Below are positions 10,466 through 59,507 of a stretch of 64,000 nucleotides of DNA, piece after piece (position 1 is the stretch's first letter; each line of letters begins with the position of its first letter). The notes beneath the pieces were generated by a model. That model worked only from the letters and a program-made list of their open reading frames with translations, did no database searches and was not told where the DNA came from. The stretch spans positions 1,798,001 through 1,862,000 of the forward strand of contig NZ_CP013387.1 in the NCBI RefSeq assembly GCF_001523745.2, read 5' to 3'. The translations under genes and the position numbers were made by a program. This DNA comes from Burkholderia mayonis (GTDB lineage Bacteria > Pseudomonadota > Gammaproteobacteria > Burkholderiales > Burkholderiaceae).

Positions 10466-11164
10466 ATGAGCCTCACCCGATTCAAAGTTCTGACCTTCGA
10501 CGTCGTCGGCACGTTGATCGACTTCGAGCGCGGCATGCTCGACTACGTTCACGACGCCGCGCCCGACGCGCGAATCACCGACGAGGATTTCCTGCGTGCC
10601 TACCGCATCGCCCGCAAGGACGCGAACGCGACCTGGTATCCCGACGACCTCGTCCGATGCTGGCATGCGGTCGCGCCCGCGCTCGGCCTGCCCGACGACG
10701 ATGCGATCGCCCGAGGTTTTCGCGACTCGGTCGCGCGCTGGCCCGCCTTCGACGATTCGGTCGATGCGCTGAAGCGCCTGCGCAAGCATTTCAAGCTGGT
10801 GACGATGACGAATGCGCAGCAGTGGGCGCTCGAGCATTTCTCCGCGACGCTCGATCACCCGTTCGACCTCGAACTGAGCTGCGACGACGCGCTATGCGAA
10901 AAACCCGATCCGCGCTACTTCGCGTATGCGCGCGGCCGTTTCGAAGGCGCGTGGGGCTACCGGCAGGAAGACAACCTGCACGTCGCGCAGAGCCAGTATC
11001 ACGACATCGGCGTATCGATGGGGCTCGGCATCGCGACTTGCTGGATCGAGCGCCGCCATGCGCAGCAAGGCTCGGGCGGCACGATCGAATCCGAGATCTC
11101 CCGCCCCGACCATCACTTCCGTTCGCTTGCGGAACTCGCGGACGCGGTCGACGCCGGCCGTTGA
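10466..11164 (+). CDS. HAD-superfamily hydrolase, haloacid dehalogenase type II-like
   Basis: 232 aa. The N-terminal nucleophile motif LTFDVVGTLID is the D-x-x-G-T form seen in L-2-haloacid dehalogenases rather than the DxDxT of phosphatases. TMTNAQQWAL holds the motif-II Thr/Asn, and CEKPDPRYF holds the motif-III Lys. The region QSQYHDIGVSMGLGIATCWIER is the motif-IV area. The open frame extends upstream, but MSLTRFKVLTFD fits a normal family start. The small cupin gene follows 65 bp downstream on the same strand. The physiological substrate is unknown and need not be a haloacid. Confidence 0.85.
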   Translation: MSLTRFKVLTFDVVGTLIDFERGMLDYVHDAAPDARITDEDFLRAYRIARKDANATWYPDDLVRCWHAVAPALGLPDDDAIARGFRDSVARWPAFDDSVDALKRLRKHFKLVTMTNAQQWALEHFSATLDHPFDLELSCDDALCEKPDPRYFAYARGRFEGAWGYRQEDNLHVAQSQYHDIGVSMGLGIATCWIERRHAQQGSGGTIESEISRPDHHFRSLAELADAVDAGR

Positions 11165-11229
11165 CCGGCGCGCCGCGCGCAGCGTTCCTTTCAATGTCCA
11201 ATCAGCACGAACAGTACGGAACAAGTCCG

Positions 11230-11580
11230 ATGTCCATCACCGTCATTTCTCAATCCGTCGACGCCGCCGGCCTCGAGGACGCCGGCGCGGTCGCCCGCCC
11301 GCTCGGCGCGACCGTCGTGCATACCCGCTGTCTCGACGTTCCGCTCGAAGGCGCGGGAGACAACCAGGCCGGGCTGTGGGAATGCTCGCCGGGCCGCTTC
11401 GAGCGGCAACTCGCGAACGCCGAGGTGATGCACATCCTGTCGGGCGCGTGCACGTTCACGCCTGCGGGCGGCGAGCCGGTCGAGATCCGCGCGGGCGACA
11501 CGCTGTTCTTCCCCGCCGATACCGTCGGCGTATGGCAAATACGCGAGACGCTGCGCAAGGTCTACGTCGTGATGGCGTGA
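11230..11580 (+). CDS. Small cupin-domain protein (DUF861/cupin_3 type)
   Basis: 116 aa single-domain beta-barrel. HILSGACTFTPAGGEPVEIRAGDTLFFPADTVGVW is the conserved second half of the cupin_3 fold: Gly-rich turn, then xGDxxFFPxxxxGxW. GLWECSPGRFE is typical of the DUF861 group. These proteins act as small oxygen- or metal-dependent enzymes or as sensors; no specific reaction can be assigned. An upstream in-frame ATG at 11194 exists, but it has no ribosome site. CGGAA about 9 bases before 11230 favours the shorter form. Probably cotranscribed with the HAD gene. Confidence 0.8.
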   Translation: MSITVISQSVDAAGLEDAGAVARPLGATVVHTRCLDVPLEGAGDNQAGLWECSPGRFERQLANAEVMHILSGACTFTPAGGEPVEIRAGDTLFFPADTVGVWQIRETLRKVYVVMA

Positions 11581-13452: not shown

Positions 13453-14108
13453 AAGAATCCCTAAAAAAGTTGATACGCTCCTGCCCCGCCGCAGGTATGG
13501 GGAAGCATCAAGGAGCGAGGGGACAACGAATTCCGCGCGAGTGGCGGCAAAGTGATGAACAGCAATCGGACTTCTTGAGGGCTTCTGCCGCGGCCATACG
13601 CGGCACGAAGCACTCGGTCAAGCCATTTCTGAAAATAATCGGAACGCGCGCTTTCGATGCATCCCCGCGCCGCTCGCTAACGCGTGGTGCTCGCATCGAG
13701 CGCATCATGTGCATCGCCGCGCGATTCGGCCCGTCGCCAAAAATGAATCGTGCTTCACGTTGATTCACGTGTATAGTGGCACCGTCGTATCTTCGGGCTT
13801 CCGTGCTCCAGATGCGCCACAACTGACTGCATCGCGTGCGTTCGGCTTCGAGGCCATCGCGCGCCCGCGGTCGCCGCGTCGCTCCGCGACGCGTGCCAAT
13901 GCACACGCTGCACTCGACATGCAGCAACCCGTGTCGGCCGACATTTCCGCCACGCTGCGTTCCACGCGTCAACCAGCCGACGTTCGCCGACGGAAGGAAG
14001 CAAGCGCATCCGTCGTCGCCCTCCCCAAGGCCTACGCGCTACTGGCGAGCCGCGAATGCGCGTGATCGCGCCGACGCCCCATCGCCCAGGCCCCAACCAA
14101 GGACCAAT
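13453..14108. other. Intergenic region between cspA and rpsU-like gene
   Basis: About 650 bp without a credible gene. Its open frames are arginine/alanine-rich shadows. It should hold the cspA promoter and long 5' leader, and the S21 gene promoter. Confidence 0.4.
14099..14103 (+). promoter_or_regulatory. Ribosome binding site deciding the TTG start of the S21 gene
   Basis: AAGGA with a 5-base spacing to TTG at 14109. No ATG or GTG in the correct position exists, so this site fixes the start. Confidence 0.7.
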
Positions 14109-14321
14109 TTGACCACGATCATCCTCAATCCAAACGAACCGGTAGAAGTCGCACTGCGGCGCTTCCGTCGCACGATCGAAAGAACCGGCCTGATCAAGGA
14201 GCTTCGCGCGCGGACGAGCTATGAGAAGCCCACCACCGAGCGCAAGCGGAAGAAGGCTTCCGCCGTCGCGAGACTGCGCAAGCAAATTCGCCGATCGATG
14301 CCGCCGAAGAAGATGTATTGA
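14109..14321 (+). CDS. rpsU: 30S ribosomal protein S21 paralogue, TTG start
   Basis: 70 aa. With TTG read as Met it begins [19 protein letters not shown], then [37 protein letters not shown], ending RSMPPKKMY. This is the full S21 pattern: N-terminal Asn-Glu-Pro-x-Glu-x-Ala-Leu-Arg-Arg-Phe, then a long basic helix. S21 binds the 30S platform near the anti-Shine-Dalgarno region and affects initiation. No ATG lies near the true start. The gene is monocistronic and not next to dnaG/rpoD as the classic rpsU is, so it is probably an accessory copy. It lies across from a cold-shock gene. Confidence 0.93.
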
Positions 14322-15298
14322 ACATCGGCGTCCGGGCCAGGCCGGCGCGGGCGCGCCGCCAGGCGCGTCACGCTCGAAGAGCGTCCATTTCGCGCGCGGG
14401 CCGGGCTACCGACGTCACCGCGACGCCACCTCGCAACGGCCTCGGCCCTCGGCGATGTCGTTCGCATACATGCGATCTCGTCACGCCACTCATGCGTTGT
14501 TCGATACGACGGTTCGATCGCCGCTGGCGATGCCGCATCATTACTGCAACGGACGGGCGGCGCGGAATGACTTCCGCCACGCTCCGCACGCGCTCAGGCG
14601 CTCAGGCGCTCAGGCGCTCAGGCGCTCAGGCGCTCAGATGGTCGATGAACAAACTGTCGACCGCTCATTCACCACTCATCGGCCACGCACGACGGCGCGC
14701 ATCCATCGCATGCCGCATTCGACGTGCACGCGCAATGCGCGTCCGCCGTCCTCGATGCTCGACGCATGCACATGTCGGCGCCGCTGCCCAATATCGGCCA
14801 AAGCCATGCGCTGACATCGGCATTGGCCATTAGCCTCGCTCGCATCATCCCGCCGCACAACCGCGTGAATGCCGTCAATTCCGAGCGGCGCCACTCATCA
14901 TGCGTCTCCGCATTCCGACGACGCCGTCCTGTGGTCAGTCGAATCTACTCGCACGGGCGGCCATTCGAGGAGATCGTGCCCGGATCGGGCTCGAACAGGA
15001 CCGCGCGCGACTGTTGCAAATAATCGGTCGACATTTCCGCCAGAGAGCGGATCATGGTTGAATCGTATAGGGTGCGCATCCACCCCTGCGCATCATGAAC
15101 GCTTCGGCGCGGCAATCCGGATTGCCCAAGCGGCACCGACACCGCGCTCACCCGATCCAAGCCTTCGAGCTGACCGGTGAGTCCCCCTTTACGATAGACG
15201 GCGATGCGCAGCGCATCAGCCGCAGACGACGTTGCGTTCACGCCCAGCCGCTCGAACGACCGACTCAAAGAGGGCCGAGCGATGTCTCGGCAGTTGTG
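14322..15298. other. Long non-coding stretch containing an octanucleotide repeat
   Basis: Nearly 1 kb without a supported gene; open frames here are interrupted by, or depend on, the 8-bp repeat at 14590-14637. Composition is more mixed than the flanking genes. Confidence 0.45.
14590..14637. repeat. 6 perfect tandem copies of GCGCTCAG (8 bp)
   Basis: 48 bp of exact 8-bp units in non-coding DNA. The unit length is not a multiple of three, so it is unlikely to be translated. Likely variable between strains, as other short repeats of the B. pseudomallei group are. Confidence 0.95.
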
Positions 15299-15508
15299 AT
15301 GAATCGAGATGACGTACTGAATCTGGTGTACCAGAATGAAATCGTTCAGGCCGACAGCAAGCGCCTGAACGAAACCGACATCAACCTGGAATGCAATCAG
15401 CGCGAATTTCTGATGTTCGCTGCGCTTCGCGAGCTGTTGCGTGCGAACGGGTACTCGGAATTCGAGGCGGACGAGATGGCGAGCGATGTAATGTACCAAC
15501 TCAGATGA
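15299..15508 (+). CDS. Small hypothetical protein (69 aa)
   Basis: MNRDDVLNLVYQNEIVQADS at the N terminus, then NQREFLMFAALRELLRANGY and FEADEMASDVMYQL at the C terminus. It is acidic, helical and rich in non-repetitive residues, unlike the Arg-rich shadow frames around it. No ribosome site is obvious before the ATG at 15299; a GTG directly before it is an alternative. No family recognised. Its size and helical character would fit a small regulatory or structural protein. Confidence 0.5.
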   Translation: MNRDDVLNLVYQNEIVQADSKRLNETDINLECNQREFLMFAALRELLRANGYSEFEADEMASDVMYQLR

Positions 15509-15688
15509 CCGCATGCGCGTTCCCCGGAACCCACGACTCGCGCGCCATGTGCCGACGCGATCGACATTGTGCTCGAAACCGCTTCCGGGATCGAGGCCAA
15601 TTGAAAACCACGCCGCGTCAAGCCGGCGATCCCGAACCGGATCGCCGGCCGGGCGCCTCCGACAAACGCCGACAACCCGACCGCCATC

Positions 15689-15859
15689 ATGAAGAATCGA
15701 CTCGATAAAACGTTCGGACGTACGCCCAGCCGCTTCGAAACGTTGCAACAAGATCGCTTGCGCACGCTGAAACTTGCAGACGAAGCACGCGCGCTGCAAC
15801 GGGACAAAGAGTATCGCCTGATCGATCCATCGGCGGAAAAATGGCGCTACAAGCCGTGA
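15689..15859 (+). CDS. Small charged hypothetical protein (56 aa)
   Basis: MKNRLDKTFGRTPSRFETLQ at the start, LRTLKLADEARALQRDKEYR in the middle, ending DPSAEKWRYKP. It is strongly charged and probably all-helical; the amino-acid balance looks coding rather than random. No ribosome site is visible before the ATG. It lies just before the convergent folB-like gene. No family recognised. Confidence 0.45.
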   Translation: MKNRLDKTFGRTPSRFETLQQDRLRTLKLADEARALQRDKEYRLIDPSAEKWRYKP

Positions 15860-15927
15860 GCCGCGCGTTCCTTCAAACGGGATATCCGTCGGATGCCTGA
15901 AGAAATTCCAGCTTGCGAGACAATGCG

Positions 15928-16386
15928 TCAAGCCGCCCGCACTCCGTGGTGTCGCGCGACCGTGCCGCTCCACGTCAGATAATCCGCCCGCGTCCAATCC
16001 AGCTCGACGCCCACCCGCTTCGTTCCCGGTCGAATCTTCGGCTTGTGCGCGGCGATCGTCAGCGTCTCCAGCGCCGGCCATTCCCGAAACGACAGCACCG
16101 CAATTTCCGCGACGAGGGTTTCCAACAGCCTCGTATGCGGCTTCGCCGCGAGGTACGCCGCGATTTTCGCGCAGTATCCGTCGTAATCGATCCAGCCGCC
16201 TTCCTCGCTCGGCGCGCATCGATAGCCGAGCCGCGCATCGATCACGATCGGCTGCGGCGCGTCATGCTCGTGCGGATGAATGCCGATGCGCGCCGGCACC
16301 TCCAATCCGTCGACGAAAATGCTCCAGCCGCGCCCGCTCAGGCGCGGCGCATCGAGCGAGACGAACGGCTCGTCGACGGGCTTCAT
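15928..16386 (-). CDS. Dihydroneopterin aldolase-like protein (FolB family) in the sarcosine oxidase operon
   Basis: 152 aa. FolB cleaves 7,8-dihydroneopterin to hydroxymethyl-dihydropterin in folate synthesis. Family features: IFVDGLEVPARIGIHPHE (the first strand and active-site Glu region), IDARLGYRC, then HTRLLETLVAEIA, the helix before the final strands, and ETLTIAAHKPKI with the conserved Lys-Pro. There is an N-terminal extension of about 20 residues. Its ATG shares one base with the soxG stop (TGATG), so it is translationally coupled as the last gene of the operon. Sarcosine oxidase transfers a one-carbon unit to tetrahydrofolate, so a folate-related partner makes sense. Whether it is the main FolB or a specialised paralogue is unknown. 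Confidence 0.85.
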   Translation of the reverse strand: MKPVDEPFVSLDAPRLSGRGWSIFVDGLEVPARIGIHPHEHDAPQPIVIDARLGYRCAPSEEGGWIDYDGYCAKIAAYLAAKPHTRLLETLVAEIAVLSFREWPALETLTIAAHKPKIRPGTKRVGVELDWTRADYLTWSGTVARHHGVRAA

Positions 16387-50503: not shown

Positions 50504-53500
50504 ATGAACCGCTCGTACCGCTCAATCTGGAATGAAGCCCTTGGCGCGTGGGTCGCCGCTTCGGAAATCTCGTCTGCCCGCGGCAAGCCGAACAAGTCGG
50601 CCGTCGCGAAAGCGGTCGTCGCCGCCGCACTGCTTACCGGCGGCAGCATCGACGTCGCGCAGGCGCAATACGCAGTGGGCGGATCGTCGACGTTCAGTTG
50701 CACCGGGGCAGTCTGCGCGACAGGCACCCAGTCGATCGCGATCGGCGGGGGCGCTGGCAGCACGACCACCGCATCGGGCTCGACCGCGATCGCGATCGGC
50801 GCGAATGCGACAGCGTCGGGCAACTACTCGCAGGCATTCGGCCAGGCGTCGACCGCGAGCGGCAGCAGCGCGATCGGCATCGGCTCGGGCTCGAAGGCGC
50901 TCAACACCGGCGCGACCGCGGTCGGCAACGACGCGACGGCGTCCGGCACGAGCGCCATCGCGATCGGCGGCGGCAACAGCAGCGGCACGGGTGGCTCGGC
51001 GGCACTCGGAAACAACTCGATTGCGATCGGCCGATTCGCGAACACGACGGCGGCGGCGACGGGCGGCATCGCGATGGGCACGAGCTCGACGGTTTCGACG
51101 ATCAACGGCATCGCGATCGGTAACGGCGCGCTCGCGACCAACACGACGTCGAATCCGGCGCTCGCGATCGGCAATCTGGCGTCGGCCACGAACACCAATG
51201 CATCGGCGCTCGGCAACGGCGCGCTTGCGAGCGGCTCGGCAGCCTCGGCGCTCGGCACGCAGGCGGTCGCGACGGGCAGCAACTCGGTCGCGGCGGGCGC
51301 CGGCGCGACGGCGGCCGGCACCGGCTCGGTCGCGATCGGCAACAACAGCTCGGCTGCGTACGCGAACAGCGTCGCAATCGGCGCCGGCAGCGTGACCGGC
51401 ACGGCTGCGCCCACCGGCACCGGCTACCTGACGGGCAGTGCGGCGCCGCTGTCCGAAGTGTCGGTCGGCAGCTCGACCGCCCTTCGCCGCATCACGAACG
51501 TCGCCGATGGCTCCGCACCGCAGGACGCAGTGACGGTCTCCCAGTTGAGCACTGGCATGAGCACGACGGCGAGCAGCATCGCGAGCCTGTCGACGTCGGC
51601 GTCGACAGGCGTCAACTCGTTGTCCACGGGCCTGTCCACGACCAACAGCACCGTTGCGTCGCTGTCGACCTCGACCTCGACGGGCCTGAGTTCAGCCAAC
51701 AGCTCGATCGCCTCGCTCTCGACCTCGTCGTCCACCGGCATCAGCTCGTTGTCCACTGGCCTCTCGACGACCAACAGCAATCTCGCGTCGCTGTCCACGT
51801 CGACCTCGACCGGCATCGGTTCGCTGTCCACCGGCCTGTCGACGACCAACAGCAATCTCGCGTCGCTGTCGACCTCGACTTCGACCGGCATCGGTTCGTT
51901 GTCCACCGGCCTCTCGACCACCAACAGCAACGTCGCTTCGCTTTCCAGCGGCCTCAGCACTACCAACAGCTCGCTGACCTCGCTGTCGACCTCCACGTCG
52001 TCCGGCATCAGCACCGCGCAGAGCGGCGTCAACTCGTTGTCCACGGGCCTGTCCACGACCAACAGCACCGTCGCGTCGCTGTCGACCTCGACCTCGACGG
52101 GCCTGAGTTCAGCCAACAGCTCGATCGCCTCGCTCTCGACCTCGTCGTCCACCGGCATCAGCTCGTTGTCCACTGGCCTCTCGACGACCAACAGCTCGGT
52201 CGCTTCGCTTTCAACTTCGACGTCGACGGGCCTGAGCCTGGCGAATAGCTCGATCGCGTCGCTGTCCACATCGACCTCGACCGGCATCGGCTCGCTGTCC
52301 ACCGGCCTGTCGACGACCAACAGCAATCTCGCGTCGCTGTCCACGTCGACCTCGACCGGCATCGGTTCGTTGTCCACCGGCCTCTCGACCACCAACAGCA
52401 ACGTCGCTTCGCTTTCCAGCGGCCTCAGCACTACCAACAGCTCGCTGACCTCGCTGTCGACCTCCACGTCGTCCGGCATCGGCTCGCTGTCGACCAGCCT
52501 CTCGACCGTCACGACGACGACCAACAACCTCGGCAGCAGCACCGCCGCGGCGCTTGGCGGCGGCGCGACGTACAATCCGGCGACCGGCACGATCTCCGCT
52601 CCCTCGTACACGACGTACAACGCGAACGGCACGACGACGACCAACAACAGCGTCGGCGCCGCAATCGACAACATCAACGCGAACGGCATCAAATACTTTC
52701 ACGCGAATTCGACGGGCCCCGACAGCATCGCGACCGGCACCGACGCCGTCGCAATCGGTATGGGCGCGACGGCCGCGACGGCGAACTCAGTCGCGCTCGG
52801 CGCGAATTCGGTCACGGCCGCGGCCAATCCCACCAGCAGCGCGACGGTCGGCTCGACCACGCTCGCCGCGTTCGCGGGCAGCGCGCCCGTGGGCGTCGTG
52901 AGCGTCGGCGCGTCGGGCGCTGAACGCCAGATCACGAACGTCGCCGCCGGCCAGGTCACGGCCACCAGCACCGATGCGATCAACGGCAGCCAGCTCTACT
53001 CGGTCGCGTCAAAGCTCGACTCGGCTTCGAGCTCGATCGCGTCGCTCTCGACTTCCTCGTCCACCGGCATCAGCTCGTTGTCCACTGGCTTGTCCACGAC
53101 CGATAGCAATCTCGCGTCGCTCTCGACCTCCTCGTCCACCGGCATCGGTTCGTTGTCCACTGGCCTCTCGACCACCAACAGCAACGTCGCTTCGCTTTCC
53201 AGCGGCCTCAGCACCACCAACAGCTCGCTGATCTCGCTGTCGACCTCCACGTCGTCCGGCATCAGCACCGCGCAGAGCGGCGTCAACTCGTTGTCCACGG
53301 GCCTGTCCACGACCAACAGCACCGTTGCGTCGCTGTCCACGTCGACTTCGACCAGCTTGTCGTCGGCCAACAGCTCCATCGCTTCTCTGTCGACCTCGAC
53401 TTCGACCGGCATCGGCTCGCTGTCTACCGGCCTCAGCACGACCGATAGCAATCTCGCTTCGCTTTCGACCTCCTCGTCCACCGGCATCGGTTCGTTGTCC

Positions 53501-55828
53501 ACTGGCCTGAGCACGGCCAACAGCTCGCTGACCTCGCTGTCGACCTCCACGTCGTCCGGCATCAGCACCGCGCAGAGCGGCGTCAACTCGTTGTCCACGG
53601 GCCTGTCCACGACCAACAGCACCGTCGCGTCGCTGTCGACCTCGACGTCGACGAGCCTGAGCTCGGCCAACAGCTCGATCGCCTCGCTCTCGACCTCGTC
53701 GTCCACCGGCATCAGCTCGTTGTCCACTGGCCTCTCGACGACCAACAGCTCGGTCGCTTCGCTTTCGACTTCGACGTCGACGGGCCTGAGCCTGGCGAAT
53801 AGCTCGATCGCGTCGCTGTCCACATCGACCTCGACCGGCATCGGTTCGTTGTCCACTGGCCTCTCGACCACCAACAGCTCGGTCGCCTCACTTTCAACCT
53901 CGACCTCCACGGGCCTGAGTTCAGCCAACAGCTCGATCGCCTCGCTCTCGACCTCGTCGTCCACCGGCATCAGCTCGTTGTCCACTGGCCTCTCGACGAC
54001 CAACAGCTCGGTCGCTTCGCTTTCGACTTCGACGTCGACGGGCCTGAGCCTGGCGAATAGCTCGATCGCGTCGCTGTCCACATCGACCTCGACCGGCATC
54101 GGCTCGCTGTCCACCGGTCTCTCGTCCACCAACAGTTCGGTCGCCTCGCTGTCGACCTCGACGTCGACGAGCCTGAGCTCGGCCAACAGCTCGATTGCCT
54201 CGCTCTCGACGTCGACCTCGACCGGCATCGGCTCGCTGTCCACCGGCCTGTCGACGACCAACAGCAATCTCGCGTCGCTGTCCACGTCGACCTCGACCGG
54301 CATCGGCTCGCTGTCCACCGGCCTGTCGACGACCAACAGCAATCTCGCGTCGCTGTCCACGTCGACCTCGACCGGCATCGGCTCGTTGTCCACCGGCCTG
54401 TCGACGACCAACAGCAATCTCGCGTCGCTGTCCACATCGACCTCGACCGGCATCGGCTCGTTGTCGACGAGCATCAGCTCGATCACGTCGAACACGAATA
54501 ATCTCGGCAACAGTACCGCGGCGGCGCTCGGCGGCGGCGCGACGTACGATCCGGCGACCGGCACGATCTCCGCGCCCTCGTACACGACATACAACGCCGA
54601 CGGCACGACGACCAGCAACAACAACGTCGGCTCCGCGATCGACAACATCAACGCGAAGGGCACCAAGTACTTCCACGCGAACTCGACCGATCCGGACAGC
54701 CAGGCGACGGGCGCCAACAGCATCGCGATCGGCCCGAACGCGATCGCGAACATCGACGATTCGGTCGCGATCGGCAACGGCGCGACGACGGCGGCGGCCG
54801 TATCCGTCACGTCGGCGACCGTCGGCGGCCTGACGTTCGGCGGCTTCGCGGGCAGCGCCCCGGTTGGCGTGTTCAGCGTCGGCGCGCCGGGGGCGGAGCG
54901 CCAGGTCACGAACGTTGCCGCCGGCCGCATCTCCGCAGCCAGCACCGACGCCGTCAACGGCAGCCAGCTCTATGCGACCAACAGCAACGTCGCGTCGCTG
55001 TCGACCAGCCTGAACACGACGAACAGCAACGTCGCGTCGCTGTCCACGTCGACTTCGACCGCCGTCGGTTCGCTGTCCACCGGCCTGTCGACGACCAACA
55101 GCAATCTCGCGTCGCTGTCCACGTCGACCTCGACCGGCATCGGTTCGTTGTCCACCGGCCTGTCGACGACCAACACCACCGTCGCGTCGCTGTCGACGAG
55201 CGTGACCAACCTCAACACGCAGGTGTCGTCGCTGTCGACGACGCTCGTCAACAGCACGAACAACGTGATCCGCTCGTTGCCGGCGAGCACGGGCGTCGCC
55301 GCCGACATGAGCGCGCCGACCGCCGCCGCGCCGTCCGTCACGGCCGGCTCGAACTCGGTCGCAATCGGCGCGAACTCGAACGACGGCGGCCGCTCGAACG
55401 TCGTCTCGGTCGGCAGTTCGACGCAGCAGCGGCAGATCACGAACGTCGCCGCCGGCACGGAAGGCACCGACGCGGTCAACGTCAACCAGTTGAATGCGCT
55501 GTCCACTTCTATGTCACAATCGCTGACGGGTCAGCAATCCCAGATCAACACTCTGGGCACGCAGCTGAACCAGACTCAGCAAGCGCTGCAGCAGACCGAC
55601 ACGATGGCCCGTCAGGGCATCGCGGCCGCCACCGCGCTGACGATGCTGCCGCAGGTCGAACCCGGCAAGACGATCAACGTCGCCGTCGGCGTCGCCCGCT
55701 TCGCAGGTCAGTCGGGGATGGCGTTCGGCGCGAGCGCGCATGTGACAACCAACGGCATTCTCAAGCTGGGCATCGGCGTGTCGGGGCAGAACAAGACCTT
55801 CGGTGCAGGATATGGATATAGCTGGTGA
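50504..55828 (+). CDS. Trimeric autotransporter adhesin (YadA-like, type Vc secretion)
   Basis: 1774 aa. Extended signal peptide MNRSYRSIWNEALGAWVAAS ... (ESPR, cleavage near residue 55 after AQA). Head 1 (about 65-310) has YadA-type repeats such as GSTAIAIGANATASGN. A neck follows (SVGSSTALRRITNVADGSA, about 318-350). Stalk 1 consists of 25-residue repeats (SLSTSTSTGIGSLSTGLSTT ...). A second module (about 680-836) has GGGATYNPATGTISAPSY, the HANS motif (KYFHANSTGPDS), a short head and a neck. Stalk 2 follows, a near-copy of the module at about 1340-1495, stalk 3, then the last neck (ITNVAAGTEGTDAVNVNQL). The C-terminal anchor (about 1700-1774, four beta strands, ending FGAGYGYSW) inserts as a trimer in the outer membrane. 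The stalks are extremely Ser/Thr rich. The stop overlaps the GTG of the next gene. It should mediate adhesion to host cells, matrix or other bacteria. Confidence 0.96.
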   Translation: MNRSYRSIWNEALGAWVAASEISSARGKPNKSAVAKAVVAAALLTGGSIDVAQAQYAVGGSSTFSCTGAVCATGTQSIAIGGGAGSTTTASGSTAIAIGANATASGNYSQAFGQASTASGSSAIGIGSGSKALNTGATAVGNDATASGTSAIAIGGGNSSGTGGSAALGNNSIAIGRFANTTAAATGGIAMGTSSTVSTINGIAIGNGALATNTTSNPALAIGNLASATNTNASALGNGALASGSAASALGTQAVATGSNSVAAGAGATAAGTGSVAIGNNSSAAYANSVAIGAGSVTGTAAPTGTGYLTGSAAPLSEVSVGSSTALRRITNVADGSAPQDAVTVSQLSTGMSTTASSIASLSTSASTGVNSLSTGLSTTNSTVASLSTSTSTGLSSANSSIASLSTSSSTGISSLSTGLSTTNSNLASLSTSTSTGIGSLSTGLSTTNSNLASLSTSTSTGIGSLSTGLSTTNSNVASLSSGLSTTNSSLTSLSTSTSSGISTAQSGVNSLSTGLSTTNSTVASLSTSTSTGLSSANSSIASLSTSSSTGISSLSTGLSTTNSSVASLSTSTSTGLSLANSSIASLSTSTSTGIGSLSTGLSTTNSNLASLSTSTSTGIGSLSTGLSTTNSNVASLSSGLSTTNSSLTSLSTSTSSGIGSLSTSLSTVTTTTNNLGSSTAAALGGGATYNPATGTISAPSYTTYNANGTTTTNNSVGAAIDNINANGIKYFHANSTGPDSIATGTDAVAIGMGATAATANSVALGANSVTAAANPTSSATVGSTTLAAFAGSAPVGVVSVGASGAERQITNVAAGQVTATSTDAINGSQLYSVASKLDSASSSIASLSTSSSTGISSLSTGLSTTDSNLASLSTSSSTGIGSLSTGLSTTNSNVASLSSGLSTTNSSLISLSTSTSSGISTAQSGVNSLSTGLSTTNSTVASLSTSTSTSLSSANSSIASLSTSTSTGIGSLSTGLSTTDSNLASLSTSSSTGIGSLSTGLSTANSSLTSLSTSTSSGISTAQSGVNSLSTGLSTTNSTVASLSTSTSTSLSSANSSIASLSTSSSTGISSLSTGLSTTNSSVASLSTSTSTGLSLANSSIASLSTSTSTGIGSLSTGLSTTNSSVASLSTSTSTGLSSANSSIASLSTSSSTGISSLSTGLSTTNSSVASLSTSTSTGLSLANSSIASLSTSTSTGIGSLSTGLSSTNSSVASLSTSTSTSLSSANSSIASLSTSTSTGIGSLSTGLSTTNSNLASLSTSTSTGIGSLSTGLSTTNSNLASLSTSTSTGIGSLSTGLSTTNSNLASLSTSTSTGIGSLSTSISSITSNTNNLGNSTAAALGGGATYDPATGTISAPSYTTYNADGTTTSNNNVGSAIDNINAKGTKYFHANSTDPDSQATGANSIAIGPNAIANIDDSVAIGNGATTAAAVSVTSATVGGLTFGGFAGSAPVGVFSVGAPGAERQVTNVAAGRISAASTDAVNGSQLYATNSNVASLSTSLNTTNSNVASLSTSTSTAVGSLSTGLSTTNSNLASLSTSTSTGIGSLSTGLSTTNTTVASLSTSVTNLNTQVSSLSTTLVNSTNNVIRSLPASTGVAADMSAPTAAAPSVTAGSNSVAIGANSNDGGRSNVVSVGSSTQQRQITNVAAGTEGTDAVNVNQLNALSTSMSQSLTGQQSQINTLGTQLNQTQQALQQTDTMARQGIAAATALTMLPQVEPGKTINVAVGVARFAGQSGMAFGASAHVTTNGILKLGIGVSGQNKTFGAGYGYSW
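51590..54480 (+). repeat. 75-bp tandem repeats coding the Ser/Thr-rich adhesin stalks
   Basis: Units code for the 25-residue pattern SLSTSTSTGIGSLSTGLSTT + NSNLA, with variants (LSSANSSIA, LSLANSSIA, ISTAQSGVN). Four nearly identical units lie at about 54150-54450. Larger blocks are also duplicated, for example around 51600-52490 and 53280-54130. The array is interrupted by the second head module at about 52545-53010. Prone to recombination and to assembly collapse. Confidence 0.92.
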
Positions 55829-56979
55829 TCGATTCCGTCCGATCTTCGTCAACCGGGCCGCATGACGCGCCCGGCAAACGCCTCGCCGTCGGCATCTCGC
55901 TCTTCGCCCGCGACGGCCAGGCGATCTGGGAAAACGGCATTCATCAGAACATTGCGTTCCTGGCGATGATGCTCAAGCAGTCGGACCGGGTCGGCCCGGT
56001 CTACTTCCTGAACGGCGGCGACGCGAAAGCGTTGCCCGCCGGCCTCGATCTCGCCGGCCTCGACGTGCCGCTCGTGCAGCCGCGCGACGTGTCGCACGCG
56101 CTCGACGTCGTGATCGAGATGGGCGCGCAGCTGCCCGTCGACTGGCTCAAGTACATGAAGGCGCTCGGCAAGAAGCTCGTCGCCTGCTTCGTCGGCCACA
56201 CGTACAGCGGGCTCTGCGAGACGCCGATGTTCAATCGGCCGTCGGGCCACATCTTCAACGGCGGGCCGTTCGACGAAGTATGGATCTTGCCGAAATCCGA
56301 GAAGATCGACGCGCCGCTCTTGCGCACGCTCACGCGTGCGCCGGTGCACGTCGTCCCGCACATCTGGTCGCCGTACTTCATCGAGCGCCGCGCGCGCCAG
56401 CTCGACGCCGAGGGACTGCGCTTCGGCTACGAGCCGGGCCGCGCGAAGTGGCGGCTGTCGATCCTCGAGCCGAACATCTCGGTCGTGAAGACCTGCCACT
56501 ACCCGATGCTCGCCGCCGACGAATTCCACCGCGCGCAGCCCGATGCGGTCGAGCATCTGTTCGTCGTCAACTCGCTGCACATGAAGGAACATCCGACATT
56601 CGTCCATTTCGCGAACAGTCTCGATCTCGTCCGCCAGCACAAGGCGACCTTCGAGCCGCGCATCGATCTGCCGTCGTTCCTCGCGCAGCACGGCGACGCG
56701 GTGATCTCGCACCAGTGGGAAAACGCGCAGAACTATCTGTACTACGACGTGCTGTACGGCGGCTATCCGCTCGTGCACAATTCGCCGCTCCTCGGCGACG
56801 CAGGCTACCGCTACCCGGAATTCGATTCCGCGGCGGGCGGCCGCGCGCTGCTGCACGCATGGCGGCATCACGATACGCATCTCGACGACTACCGCCGTAA
56901 AGCCGATGCGCTCCTGCACGGCGTGTCGATCGACAACCGCGACAACCTCGACGCGTACGTCGCGCGTCTGGCCGCCTGA
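55825..56979 (+). CDS. DUF2827-type protein 1, glycosyltransferase-like, translationally coupled to the adhesin
   Basis: 384 aa, GTG start overlapping the adhesin TGA by 4 bases (GTGA). No signal peptide, so cytoplasmic. Rossmann-like start LAVGISLFARDGQAIWENGI (about residues 20-40). A C-terminal half similar to GT-B glycosyltransferases: RLSILEPNISVVKTCHYPML, SHQWENAQNYLYYDVLYGGY and PLVHNSPLLGDAGYRYPEFD. The two other family members lie next door. I recognise the set as DUF2827-like from memory; the enzyme activity is an inference from the GT-B-like pattern and the Ser/Thr-rich neighbour. Confidence 0.75.
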   Translation: MIDSVRSSSTGPHDAPGKRLAVGISLFARDGQAIWENGIHQNIAFLAMMLKQSDRVGPVYFLNGGDAKALPAGLDLAGLDVPLVQPRDVSHALDVVIEMGAQLPVDWLKYMKALGKKLVACFVGHTYSGLCETPMFNRPSGHIFNGGPFDEVWILPKSEKIDAPLLRTLTRAPVHVVPHIWSPYFIERRARQLDAEGLRFGYEPGRAKWRLSILEPNISVVKTCHYPMLAADEFHRAQPDAVEHLFVVNSLHMKEHPTFVHFANSLDLVRQHKATFEPRIDLPSFLAQHGDAVISHQWENAQNYLYYDVLYGGYPLVHNSPLLGDAGYRYPEFDSAAGGRALLHAWRHHDTHLDDYRRKADALLHGVSIDNRDNLDAYVARLAA

Positions 56980-57001
56980 GCCTTTTCCCCGGAGAGAATG
57001 C

Positions 57002-58150
57002 ATGTCCGAAACCACCGCCCGTGACGTGCCGAACGGCGGCAGGCGTCTCGTCGTCGGCGTGTCGCTGTTCGTACGCGGCGCCGGCCAGTCGCTGTGGGAG
57101 AACGGCATCTTCCAGAACTGCCTGCTGCTCGTGCTGCTGCTGCGCCAGTCGCCGCTCGTCGCCGAAGCGGTGATGATCAACGGCGGCGCGAACGACGCCG
57201 ATCCGCAGTTGATGCTCGGCGAATGGAACGTGCCGCTCCTCTCGATGGACGACGCGATGACGCGCTGCGACGTGGTGATCGAGATGAGCGCGCAGTTCAA
57301 CGCCGGCTGGATCGCCGCGTATCAGCAGCGCGGCGGCAAGGTCGTGACGATGCGCGTCGGCAACGACTACGTGATCGACATCGAGCGCGCGATCTTCGAC
57401 AAGCCGTCCGGCTTCCAATTTTCGGGCGCGCGCTACGACGGCGTCTGGACGATTCCCGAATTCGAGCACTCGTGCGGACACTACCTCGAATCGGGGCTGC
57501 GCAGCCCGGTGACGATCGTGCCGCACATCTGGCATCCGCTGTTGTTCGACAAGGCGCGCGCGACGCTCGGCCCGGGTCTCGAATTCGGCTACAAGCCGGG
57601 CAAGCCGCGCTGGCGCGTCGCGATGTTCGAGCCGAACATCTGCATGGTGAAGACGAGCATCGTGCCGATGCTCGTCGCCGAAGAGGCGTATCGCGCCGAG
57701 CCGGGCTTCGTCGAATTCGTGCGCGTGTGCAACACGATGCACATGAAGGAGCACACGACGTTCGTCCACTTCGCGCGCAGCCTCGACATCGTCAACCACG
57801 GGCTGACGACGTTCGAAGGGCGTTTCGCGGTCTACGAATTCATGGCGGCGCACGGCGACGTGGTCGTGTCGCATACGTGGGAGAACGCGCAGAACTATCT
57901 GTACTACGAGTTGCTGTACGGCGACTATCCGCTCGTCCACAACTCGCCGTACGTCGGCAAGGCCGGCTATTTCTATTCGGCTTTCGATTGCCAGGAAGGC
58001 GGCCGGCAGTTGCTGAAGGCGTTCCGCGAGCACGACGCGAACCTCGATGCGTATCGCGAGCAGTCGCGGCAGCTTCTGGATTCGGTCAGCATCTATAACC
58101 CGGATAACGTCGCCGCGTATACGGACGCGATCGCCGCGCTGTATCGGTAA
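57002..58150 (+). CDS. DUF2827-type protein 2, glycosyltransferase-like
   Basis: 382 aa, paralogue of the preceding protein over its whole length (VVGVSLFVRGAGQSLWENGI; MFEPNICMVKTSIVPMLVAE; SHTWENAQNYLYYELLYGDY; PLVHNSPYVGKAGYFYSAFD). GGAGAG 5 bases before the ATG fixes the start. It begins 22 bp after the first copy stops, so it is in the same transcript as the adhesin. The two copies differ in the substrate-proximal middle part, suggesting different donors or acceptors (inference). Confidence 0.8.
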   Translation: MSETTARDVPNGGRRLVVGVSLFVRGAGQSLWENGIFQNCLLLVLLLRQSPLVAEAVMINGGANDADPQLMLGEWNVPLLSMDDAMTRCDVVIEMSAQFNAGWIAAYQQRGGKVVTMRVGNDYVIDIERAIFDKPSGFQFSGARYDGVWTIPEFEHSCGHYLESGLRSPVTIVPHIWHPLLFDKARATLGPGLEFGYKPGKPRWRVAMFEPNICMVKTSIVPMLVAEEAYRAEPGFVEFVRVCNTMHMKEHTTFVHFARSLDIVNHGLTTFEGRFAVYEFMAAHGDVVVSHTWENAQNYLYYELLYGDYPLVHNSPYVGKAGYFYSAFDCQEGGRQLLKAFREHDANLDAYREQSRQLLDSVSIYNPDNVAAYTDAIAALYR

Positions 58151-58361
58151 GCCGGCAGCGCGCCTCAAGTTTCCGCTCGTCTCCCCGAACGTCGCTTGAA
58201 CAAGCGCGTAGCGTCAATGCGTGGTCGGGCAACAATAGGCCGCGCCGAAAAAAGATCCGGCGTGAACCACCGTGATCGATGCGCCCGACGCGAAGACCAA
58301 GGCGAAGGCGAAGACGCCGCGATCCCGGCCGCGCCCGCACCTGCCGCCGCTCGCGCGACGT

Positions 58362-59507
58362 TCAGCGCCCGCAGTCATTGACGAGATTCGCGAGCAGCGT
58401 GTCGTATTCGGCGACGAGCGCCGGGTTCTTCGACGTATAGCGGCGCAACAGGCTGCGCTGCCGCGCCGCGTAGCCCTCCCAGTCGTCGTCGTGCTCGCGC
58501 AGCACGCGCATCAGCGTTTCCGTTCCCGCCTGCACGTCGTTGTCCGGATAGTAGTAGCCGATGTCCGGCACGAGGTGTGCGTTGTGGACGAGCGGGTAGC
58601 CCTGCCAGCAGACGTCGAAGTAGAAATAGTTGAGCGGGTTCTCCCACTGGTGCGACACGACGACGTCCGTGTATTCGGCGAGGAACGCCGGCGTGTCGAA
58701 GCGGCCGACGAAGCTCGCCTTGCTCGCGCGGACGACCTCCAGATAGTTCATCAGCATCACGAATTCCGGACTGTCGTGCGCGAGACGCTCGGCGTTCGTC
58801 ACGTGCGTGAACGCGATCGCGTCCGGATCGCGCCGATACGCTTCGTCGATGATCAGCATCGGATACACGCAGAACTTGACGACGTCGTGGTTCGGCTCCA
58901 TCACGGTGAGCCGCTTCGCCCGCTTGCCGCTCGGCCGATACTCGCCGTGCTCGTGCATCAGCCGTGTACGCTCGGTCAGGAACATCGGGTCCCAGACGAA
59001 CGGCACGACGCGTCCCGGGCAGCGACGCAACGACTGCATGAACGGCAGCGACGACGGCGCGATCTGCGGAATCGCCCAGATCTCGTCGTAGCCGCGATTG
59101 ATGAAAAGCGTATCCCACATCCGGCGGCCGAACAGGATCGACTGCGTCACGTGGATGTACTCGAAGCCGCAGCAGTAGCTGACGAGCTTCACGCCGCGCG
59201 CCTTCAGGTATGCAGTCTGCTCGCCGTCGATCTGGCCGCCGAGCTCGATCAGCACGTCGAGCGAATCCTTCATCTCGGTGAACGAGCGCGTATCGAAGAT
59301 CCGGCAGTCCCACGGCAGCGCATCGGTGATCGGCACGTCGGTCGTATTGACGATCGTCACGCGGTAGCCGCGCGACGATTTCATCAGCAGCTTCGCGAGA
59401 AACAGCGCGTTCTGCTTGATGCCGTTGATCCAAAGGCTCTCGTTCGGCTCGCGCAGGCCGATCGTGATACCGATGCGCAAGCCGTTCAAATCGACAGGGG
59501 AGGTCAT
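58362..59507 (-). CDS. DUF2827-type protein 3, glycosyltransferase-like, opposite strand
   Basis: 381 aa, more diverged third paralogue: RIGITIGLREPNESLWINGI at the N terminus, RLTVMEPNHDVVKFCVYPML, SHQWENPLNYFYFDVCWQGY and PLVHNAHLVPDIGYYYPDND. The same conserved Glu-Pro-Asn, His-Gln/Thr-Trp-Glu-Asn and Pro-Leu-Val-His-Asn positions are kept. The start ATG at 59507 is preceded by no clear ribosome site; an upstream in-frame extension to 59582 is possible. Convergent with copy 2, with a 211-bp gap; separately transcribed. Confidence 0.78.
   Translation of the reverse strand: MTSPVDLNGLRIGITIGLREPNESLWINGIKQNALFLAKLLMKSSRGYRVTIVNTTDVPITDALPWDCRIFDTRSFTEMKDSLDVLIELGGQIDGEQTAYLKARGVKLVSYCCGFEYIHVTQSILFGRRMWDTLFINRGYDEIWAIPQIAPSSLPFMQSLRRCPGRVVPFVWDPMFLTERTRLMHEHGEYRPSGKRAKRLTVMEPNHDVVKFCVYPMLIIDEAYRRDPDAIAFTHVTNAERLAHDSPEFVMLMNYLEVVRASKASFVGRFDTPAFLAEYTDVVVSHQWENPLNYFYFDVCWQGYPLVHNAHLVPDIGYYYPDNDVQAGTETLMRVLREHDDDWEGYAARQRSLLRRYTSKNPALVAEYDTLLANLVNDCGR

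Follow-up and report, generated by a model that had tools for sequence, protein, structure and literature searches.

The window analysed here is a 64,000-nt stretch of Burkholderia mayonis DNA (contig NZ_CP013387.1, positions 1,798,001 to 1,862,000), part of a 2.75-Mb contig in a 6.59-Mb genome assembled in two contigs. At 50504..55828 on its forward strand lies a gene for a trimeric autotransporter adhesin (TAA) of 1774 aa, followed by three genes of the DUF2827 family. The adhesin belongs to type Vc by Pfam matches to ESPR, YadA_head, YadA_stalk and YadA_anchor (PF13018, PF05658, PF05662 and PF03895), all above cut-off, and by its composition. The extended signal peptide region (ESPR) occupies aa 1–46 (50504..50641; E = 2.7e-14) and the YadA-type outer-membrane anchor aa 1716–1774 (55649..55825). 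Serine and threonine together account for 745 residues (446 Ser, 299 Thr), or 42% of the protein, and repeats of the type SLSTGLSTTNSNLASLSTSTSTGIG reach 50–60% Ser+Thr across hundreds of residues of the stalk. A first array, of SLST-type repeats, spans about aa 341–690 (51524..52573; Ser+Thr fraction 0.44–0.60 per 100 aa), a second about aa 840–1340 (53021..54523; 0.37–0.60 per 100 aa), and a third, short one about aa 1490–1590 (54971..55273; about 0.50), all on the forward strand; in both long arrays the fraction stays at 0.44–0.60 outside the last block. The stalk also contains 44 N-x-S/T sequons, though it is mainly a Ser/Thr array.

The arrangement of the DUF2827 genes is as a first-pass annotation had described it. 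The adhesin stop codon overlaps the GTG start of copy 1 (GTGA at 55825–55828; gene at 55825..56979, + strand, 384 aa, PF10933 E = 1.4e-164), copy 2 begins with an ATG at 57002 after a 22-bp gap (56980–57001; gene at 57002..58150, + strand, E = 5.8e-158), and a diverged third copy faces this pair (58362..59507, − strand, E = 1.2e-149). All three match the PF10933 profile over its full length and above cut-off; copy 2 shares 47% identity with copy 1, and copy 3 shares 37%. The top-scoring DUF2827 relative in the protein database, an entry named Burkholderia pseudomallei, is 94% identical to copy 1, and we accordingly take the host to belong to that species group. A family search of the whole genome found five DUF2827 copies. 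The two outside the window (119–121 kb on this contig) follow, after 307 bp, a second TAA frame, which is 1252 aa long and has other repeats (NSTASGDNSTASGT...), so that all five copies, and two of the five TAAs counted by YadA anchors, are paired. This second locus (L006 5988–12337; G000:C2:115–121 kb) carries a beta-like and an alpha-type copy, as defined below; the beta-like copy is highly diverged, with a terminal branch of 1.19 in our tree. About 7 kb past the pair, an 800-aa frame has a weak GT41-type match (G000:C2:128233–129249).

The first-pass annotation had noted GT-B-like C-terminal motifs in the DUF2827 proteins, and for its proposal a glycosyltransferase (GT)-like fold was to be expected. 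Consistent with this, the structure predicted for copy 1 has a GT-B fold along its full length, according to the model and a fold comparison, with two Rossmann-like domains and a putative donor cleft between them; copies 2 and 3 are predicted glycosyltransferases by homology to copy 1. A cytoplasmic location is predicted for the copies from their N-termini, read by eye, and from the first strand of the model, at residue 20. Searches of profile libraries and of PDB sequences gave no link to a known GT family. No other Pfam family and no NCBIfam family matched any of the three window copies up to E 10, and thus neither an HMW1C-like N-glycosyltransferase (NGT) profile, which we take to be present in both libraries, nor an autotransporter heptosyltransferase (BAHT) profile, which we take to be present in NCBIfam, was hit. 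Among the 56 members of one alignment (A2), Pfam matches other than DUF2827 itself included no GT family, only scattered weak non-GT matches in one or two members. A PDB sequence search with copy 1 gave no match, and one with the alignment gave only V-ATPase subunit G (E about 3). Weak, diverged DUF2827 matches occur in three small genomes of the family (G021, G022 and G042; E = 3e-28, 4e-18 and 6e-4) and could bridge to other GT families.

Conserved residues bear on whether these proteins are enzymes. We compared 240 DUF2827 proteins, drawn from loci L036–L114 and matching at least 340 profile positions. The C-terminal motifs quoted in the first-pass annotation are genuine: H296 and P315-L316-x-H318-N319 (copy 1 numbering) are invariant in 240/240. 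D94, E98, R171, K222, R279 and H296 are invariant across all paralogues, and position 308 is always Asp or Glu. Taking EX7E, along with an Arg/Lys pair at the donor site, to mark the retaining GT4 family and reading the motif by register only, we place its second acid at D/E308 (240/240), with Lys222 kept, and find Asn300 at the position of the first Glu in 230/240. This altered canonical position would suit a different explanation, in which DUF2827 proteins are GT-B-fold pseudo-enzymes that serve long repetitive TAAs in the cytoplasm, either as chaperones or by pacing their export. However, a pure scaffold has no obvious need of the invariant polar and charged positions, and glycan genes are co-located with DUF2827 in several lineages (see below). 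We therefore regard this explanation as improbable, although HMW1C has also been suggested to act as a chaperone (PMC8151025, in the text available).

We examined the placement of DUF2827 genes in two samples. The first comprised 79 loci, obtained from the best 80 of 302 confirmed places and biased to Burkholderia relatives. A TAA anchor is present in 59 of the 79, counting the mere remnant in L100. A further five, from Caballeronia (L092, L097, L099, L103 and L106), lack the anchor but have an ESPR start and a Ser/Thr-rich TAA body cut by the end of the locus, giving TAA evidence in 64 loci. In L050 and L065 the contig edge lies about 1 kb or less ahead of the first DUF2827 gene. In L100, a single open frame (11131–11550) begins as an alpha DUF2827 gene and finishes in TAA-anchor sequence, a pattern that fits deletion of the remainder of the two genes. 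The second sample comprised 24 DUF2827-positive genomes from ten genera, picked mostly for few contigs, with 88 DUF2827 genes in 33 clusters (three fragments excluded) and 109 TAA frames. Twenty of the 33 clusters, covering seven of the ten genera, lie within 5 kb of a TAA frame, compared with 0.47 expected under random placement. Thus, the predicted enzyme gene is linked to the adhesin gene, as in a dedicated system, and the non-random placement anticipated by the first-pass annotation is borne out, above all beside Ser/Thr-rich TAAs, even though adjacency is not universal. The idea that TAA and DUF2827 genes decay together was not upheld: both are damaged in G277, but G267 has three open DUF2827 frames beside its interrupted TAA.

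The linked adhesins differ in composition from the others. We scored 107 of the 109 TAA frames (two of <150 aa were dropped) and used the 103 of at least 400 aa, dropping four. The 20 linked frames have a median Ser+Thr fraction of 0.416 and a median of 0.653 in the densest 200-aa window, whereas the 83 unlinked frames have medians of 0.213 and 0.280 (Mann-Whitney P = 6e-7 and 8e-8, respectively, among related genomes). Broken TAA frames, or frames with a distant anchor, near DUF2827 were scored as unlinked, which works against this difference. There are also Ser/Thr-rich TAAs without linkage, though the sample was designed so that every genome in it is DUF2827-positive. The two components also co-occur. 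Among 299 genomes of the family (taken to be the same sample in both searches, since the handles agree), DUF2827 is found in 86, of which four have weak matches only (E = 3e-28 to 6e-4); a 281-aa segment of the window stalk matches in 74 at E 1e-10. Both are present in 71 genomes, DUF2827 only in 15, the stalk only in three and neither in 210 (Fisher P = 1e-49, genomes related); outside the genus itself, the corresponding counts are 33, 14, 3 and 208 (Fisher P = 4e-27, genomes related). We rejected the view that SLST itself is the acceptor signal as too restrictive, because some linked TAAs carry NSTASG or SSATKAD repeats. One linked TAA outside the order (L157, in G647) has a long Ala/Ser/Thr repeat, SSATKADSSASAASSSASAAA, with no SLST motif, and a single DUF2827 gene.

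A maximum-likelihood tree of 58 DUF2827 proteins resolves the paralogues into deep clades. Copy 1 falls in clade beta (16 rows, support 96/94), copy 2 in clade alpha (19 rows with the long delta row left out, 100/96) and copy 3 in clade gamma (13 rows, 100/100); a second beta-like clade (9 rows, 100/99) unites Caballeronia, Paraburkholderia and Variovorax proteins with one from the second locus of this genome. Each deep clade spans families, and alpha and beta extend to Verrucomicrobiota. A beta gene followed by an alpha gene within 2.5 kb is found in 76 of the 79 loci, with gamma in 58 and delta in 27, and the fact that the beta-alpha pair is kept together suggests that both are needed. DUF2827 is rare outside its own order: across the phylum it was found in 6 of 398 genomes, this genome and its kin included, five of the six being in the order, and across the class, among 369 genomes, this genome alone scored above cut-off. 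It also occurs in contigs of two Verrucomicrobiota metagenome-assembled genomes (MAGs; L093 and L111), the latter, a Spartobacteria locus, with a beta-alpha pair near GT4 and sulfotransferase genes. The patchiness of this distribution (86/299 in the family, 6/398 in the phylum sample), the relatedness of the genomes and the open DUF2827 frames beside an interrupted TAA in G267 could be read to mean that the two kinds of gene merely share islands without functional interaction. We consider this very unlikely, and already disfavoured, because it does not sit with a beta-alpha order conserved between lineages as far apart as Burkholderia and a Verrucomicrobiota contig, with two different TAA loci in one genome, or with the association of DUF2827 with TAAs of such different repeats as SLST, NSTASG and SSATKAD.

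We conclude that the DUF2827 proteins are probably GT-B glycosyltransferases that work in the cytoplasm and are dedicated to Ser/Thr-rich TAAs. As an adhesin-modification system, which the first-pass annotation had raised as a possibility, the locus is well supported by the fold of copy 1, the gene linkage, the bias towards Ser/Thr-rich adhesins and the conserved set of paralogues; catalysis, donor, O-linkage, acceptor sites, co-transcription and division of labour are what we infer from these.

Several observations weigh on the other side. A shared fold by itself shows no function. In a profile-profile comparison seeded from 60 GT loci, 53 of which gathered at least two sequences, the best match was to GT41, the family of HMW1C/NGT (E = 0.0072, with the best reversed control at 0.17), and one of 25 decoys reached 0.0075; GT41 entries are not among the 50 listed in the fold comparison, which excludes nothing. 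Because the genomes are related, the P values above overstate independence and should not be read literally. Two of the linked TAA frames fall short of being Ser/Thr-rich over their whole length (0.22 in G154 and 0.23 in the 423-aa frame of G191). One DUF2827-positive genome, G161, has no TAA anchor at all. For 13 of the 79 loci the flanks, some of which are short, contained neither a TAA anchor nor an ESPR-like start nor any frame rich in Ser/Thr: L039, six Collimonas loci (L077–L080, L082 and L086), the Hydromonas-type loci L083–L085, the Verrucomicrobiota MAG contigs L093 and L111, and L113. Likewise, 13 of the 33 clusters have no TAA frame within 5 kb. Six of these adjoin a TAA start, alone or with further pieces: L133 has a stub of the ESPR and L135 a short frame, rich in Ser/Thr, that includes an ESPR; in L140 and L141 the TAA is broken up by other genes, transposon-like by eye; the TAA of L144 contains runs of N; and L145 has a Ser/Thr-rich frame of 2635 aa that the end of the locus truncates. 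Around the other seven (L134, L136–L139, L142 and L143) there is no TAA frame within 5 kb and, over about 20 kb, no TAA start. We accordingly rejected the claim that every DUF2827 gene adjoins a TAA; Collimonas, Hydromonas-type and Caballeronia pairs such as L113 do not. In L039, no TAA lies in the 2.1 kb before DUF2827, and the preceding frames resemble, by their ends, those upstream of the window adhesin; this is consistent with either loss of the adhesin or an assembly gap.

Loci that lack a TAA raise the question of a broader role, in which DUF2827 proteins would be glycosyltransferases of a general surface glycan (lipopolysaccharide (LPS), capsule or exopolysaccharide) and the adhesin would be adjacent for regulation or because of a shared attachment role. 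The TAA-less Hydromonas locus L084 does sit among glycan genes, with GT34-type and GT7C/GT2-type transferases and methyltransferases around its DUF2827 genes, and the frames of L134 look like these glycan genes, by their ends only. The Collimonas loci without a TAA, and a GT-B fold that is compatible with many acceptors, point the same way. However, a general glycan leaves the TAA linkage and the Ser/Thr-rich bias unexplained. There is also no sugar gene among the five window neighbours analysed with Pfam, which are a biotin carboxylase, an enoyl-CoA hydratase, an FMN reductase, an ATP-binding cassette (ABC) ATPase and a protein without a Pfam family. Moreover, four genomes whose clusters have no adjacent TAA (G056, G467, G160 and G277) have Ser/Thr-rich TAA frames elsewhere, that of G277 being part of the interrupted TAA. 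We consider a general surface glycan unlikely, if somewhat less so than a pseudo-enzyme. Orphan NGT genes of other bacteria (PMC8151025, in the text available) resemble these clusters lying apart from Ser/Thr-rich TAAs. Weighing against dedicated modification of the adhesin, the TAA-less Collimonas loci showed no sugar gene next to DUF2827, as judged from the three Pfam-tested neighbours in L077 (MORN repeats, a penicillin-binding protein and one without a family). In B. cenocepacia (L062), a TAA and four DUF2827 genes are accompanied by an OmpA-family gene, an FkbM methyltransferase and an EAL protein. The methyltransferase frame (13938–15932) has a tetratricopeptide repeat (TPR) region and lies between the third and fourth DUF2827 genes, and a frame with a similar start occupies the same place in L049. 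A promoter and terminator scan stayed near chance level and was not used.

If DUF2827 proteins are dedicated adhesin glycosyltransferases, they would act in the cytoplasm, before export, using a nucleotide-sugar to O-glycosylate many Ser and Thr residues of the repeat stalk, of which the first and second arrays are the proposed acceptors in the window adhesin. Short glycans would be started and lengthened, or else transferred jointly, by beta and alpha, which nearly always occur together and here lie directly after the adhesin gene; gamma, with delta and an FkbM methyltransferase in other species, would extend or cap them. The resulting sugar coat would stiffen, protect or make functional an otherwise almost bare Ser/Thr coiled-coil stalk. 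DUF2827 could then be central to an undescribed Gram-negative counterpart of serine-rich-repeat glycosylation. Two to four paralogous GT-B enzymes (beta and alpha, in many cases gamma, and now and then delta), capped in some species by FkbM, would make up an ancient assembly line that places O-glycans directly on TAA Ser/Thr repeats in the cytoplasm and yields a mucin-like stalk across Burkholderiales. We hold this wider proposal tentatively, at somewhat less than even odds.

In Gram-positive bacteria, serine-rich repeat adhesins are glycosylated by GtfA/GtfB and extending enzymes and use an accessory Sec system. DUF2827 has no detectable sequence relation to GtfA/GtfB or to the SdgA/SdgB enzymes of Sdr proteins, and these are Gram-positive systems. 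For cytoplasmic glycosylation of type V proteins, the available text of a 2021 review names two mechanisms, NGT and BAHT (PMC8151025). Like DUF2827 as we propose it, HMW1C/NGT is a cytoplasmic glycosyltransferase for a type V adhesin (HMW1, type Vb, with trimeric autotransporters also modified), co-transcribed or orphan (PMC8151025). NGT, however, targets Asn in N-x-S/T, whereas DUF2827 (384 aa in copy 1) has no profile match to another Pfam or NCBIfam family, and the stalk beside it is mainly a Ser/Thr array. BAHT enzymes (Aah and TibC, with AIDA-I, TibA and Ag43) are dedicated to cytoplasmic Ser/Thr O-glycosylation of autotransporters, as we propose for DUF2827, with the gene co-transcribed or elsewhere (PMC8151025), but they are known on beta-helix passengers; here there are several paralogues per adhesin and a coiled-coil trimeric stalk, and DUF2827 has no NCBIfam match. 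The trimeric autotransporter EmaA of Aggregatibacter is reported to be glycosylated, but in dependence on O-polysaccharide (O-PS) and WaaL, that is, by an O-antigen pathway and ligase instead of a dedicated linked transferase (PMC10892112, in the text available). For the SLST repeats of the B. cenocepacia TAA BCAM2418, O-glycosylation was proposed from composition, with no enzyme proposed in the portion of the paper available (PMC7142374). In B. pseudomallei, bbfA is described as lying in a predicted operon with bpss1442 and bpss1443, termed hypothetical without homology in the text available (PMC3818227), and the 1158-bp bpss1442 is among the genes from a macrophage-induced promoter screen (PMC7047822, likewise in part); their position and length suggest that both are DUF2827 genes. 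We found no published link of DUF2827 to adhesins or glycosylation in a search that left subscription journals mostly outside, and the only mention found was a database list, available in part, that places DUF2827 under 'Uronic acid pathway'.

In kind, the proposed system is like the known adhesin-glycosylation pairs, and what is new is the enzyme family, the several paralogues per adhesin and the trimeric coiled-coil stalk. If our interpretation is correct, DUF2827 would represent a third class of cytoplasmic glycosylation of type V proteins beside NGT and BAHT and a source of new peptide O-glycosyltransferases, an easily tested phenotype would be predicted, and a function would be assigned to a family found in 86 of the 299 sampled genomes. 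It would also help to explain how stalks so dense in Ser/Thr function, and the bare recombinant proteins on which Burkholderia adhesins have been studied may lack a native glycan.

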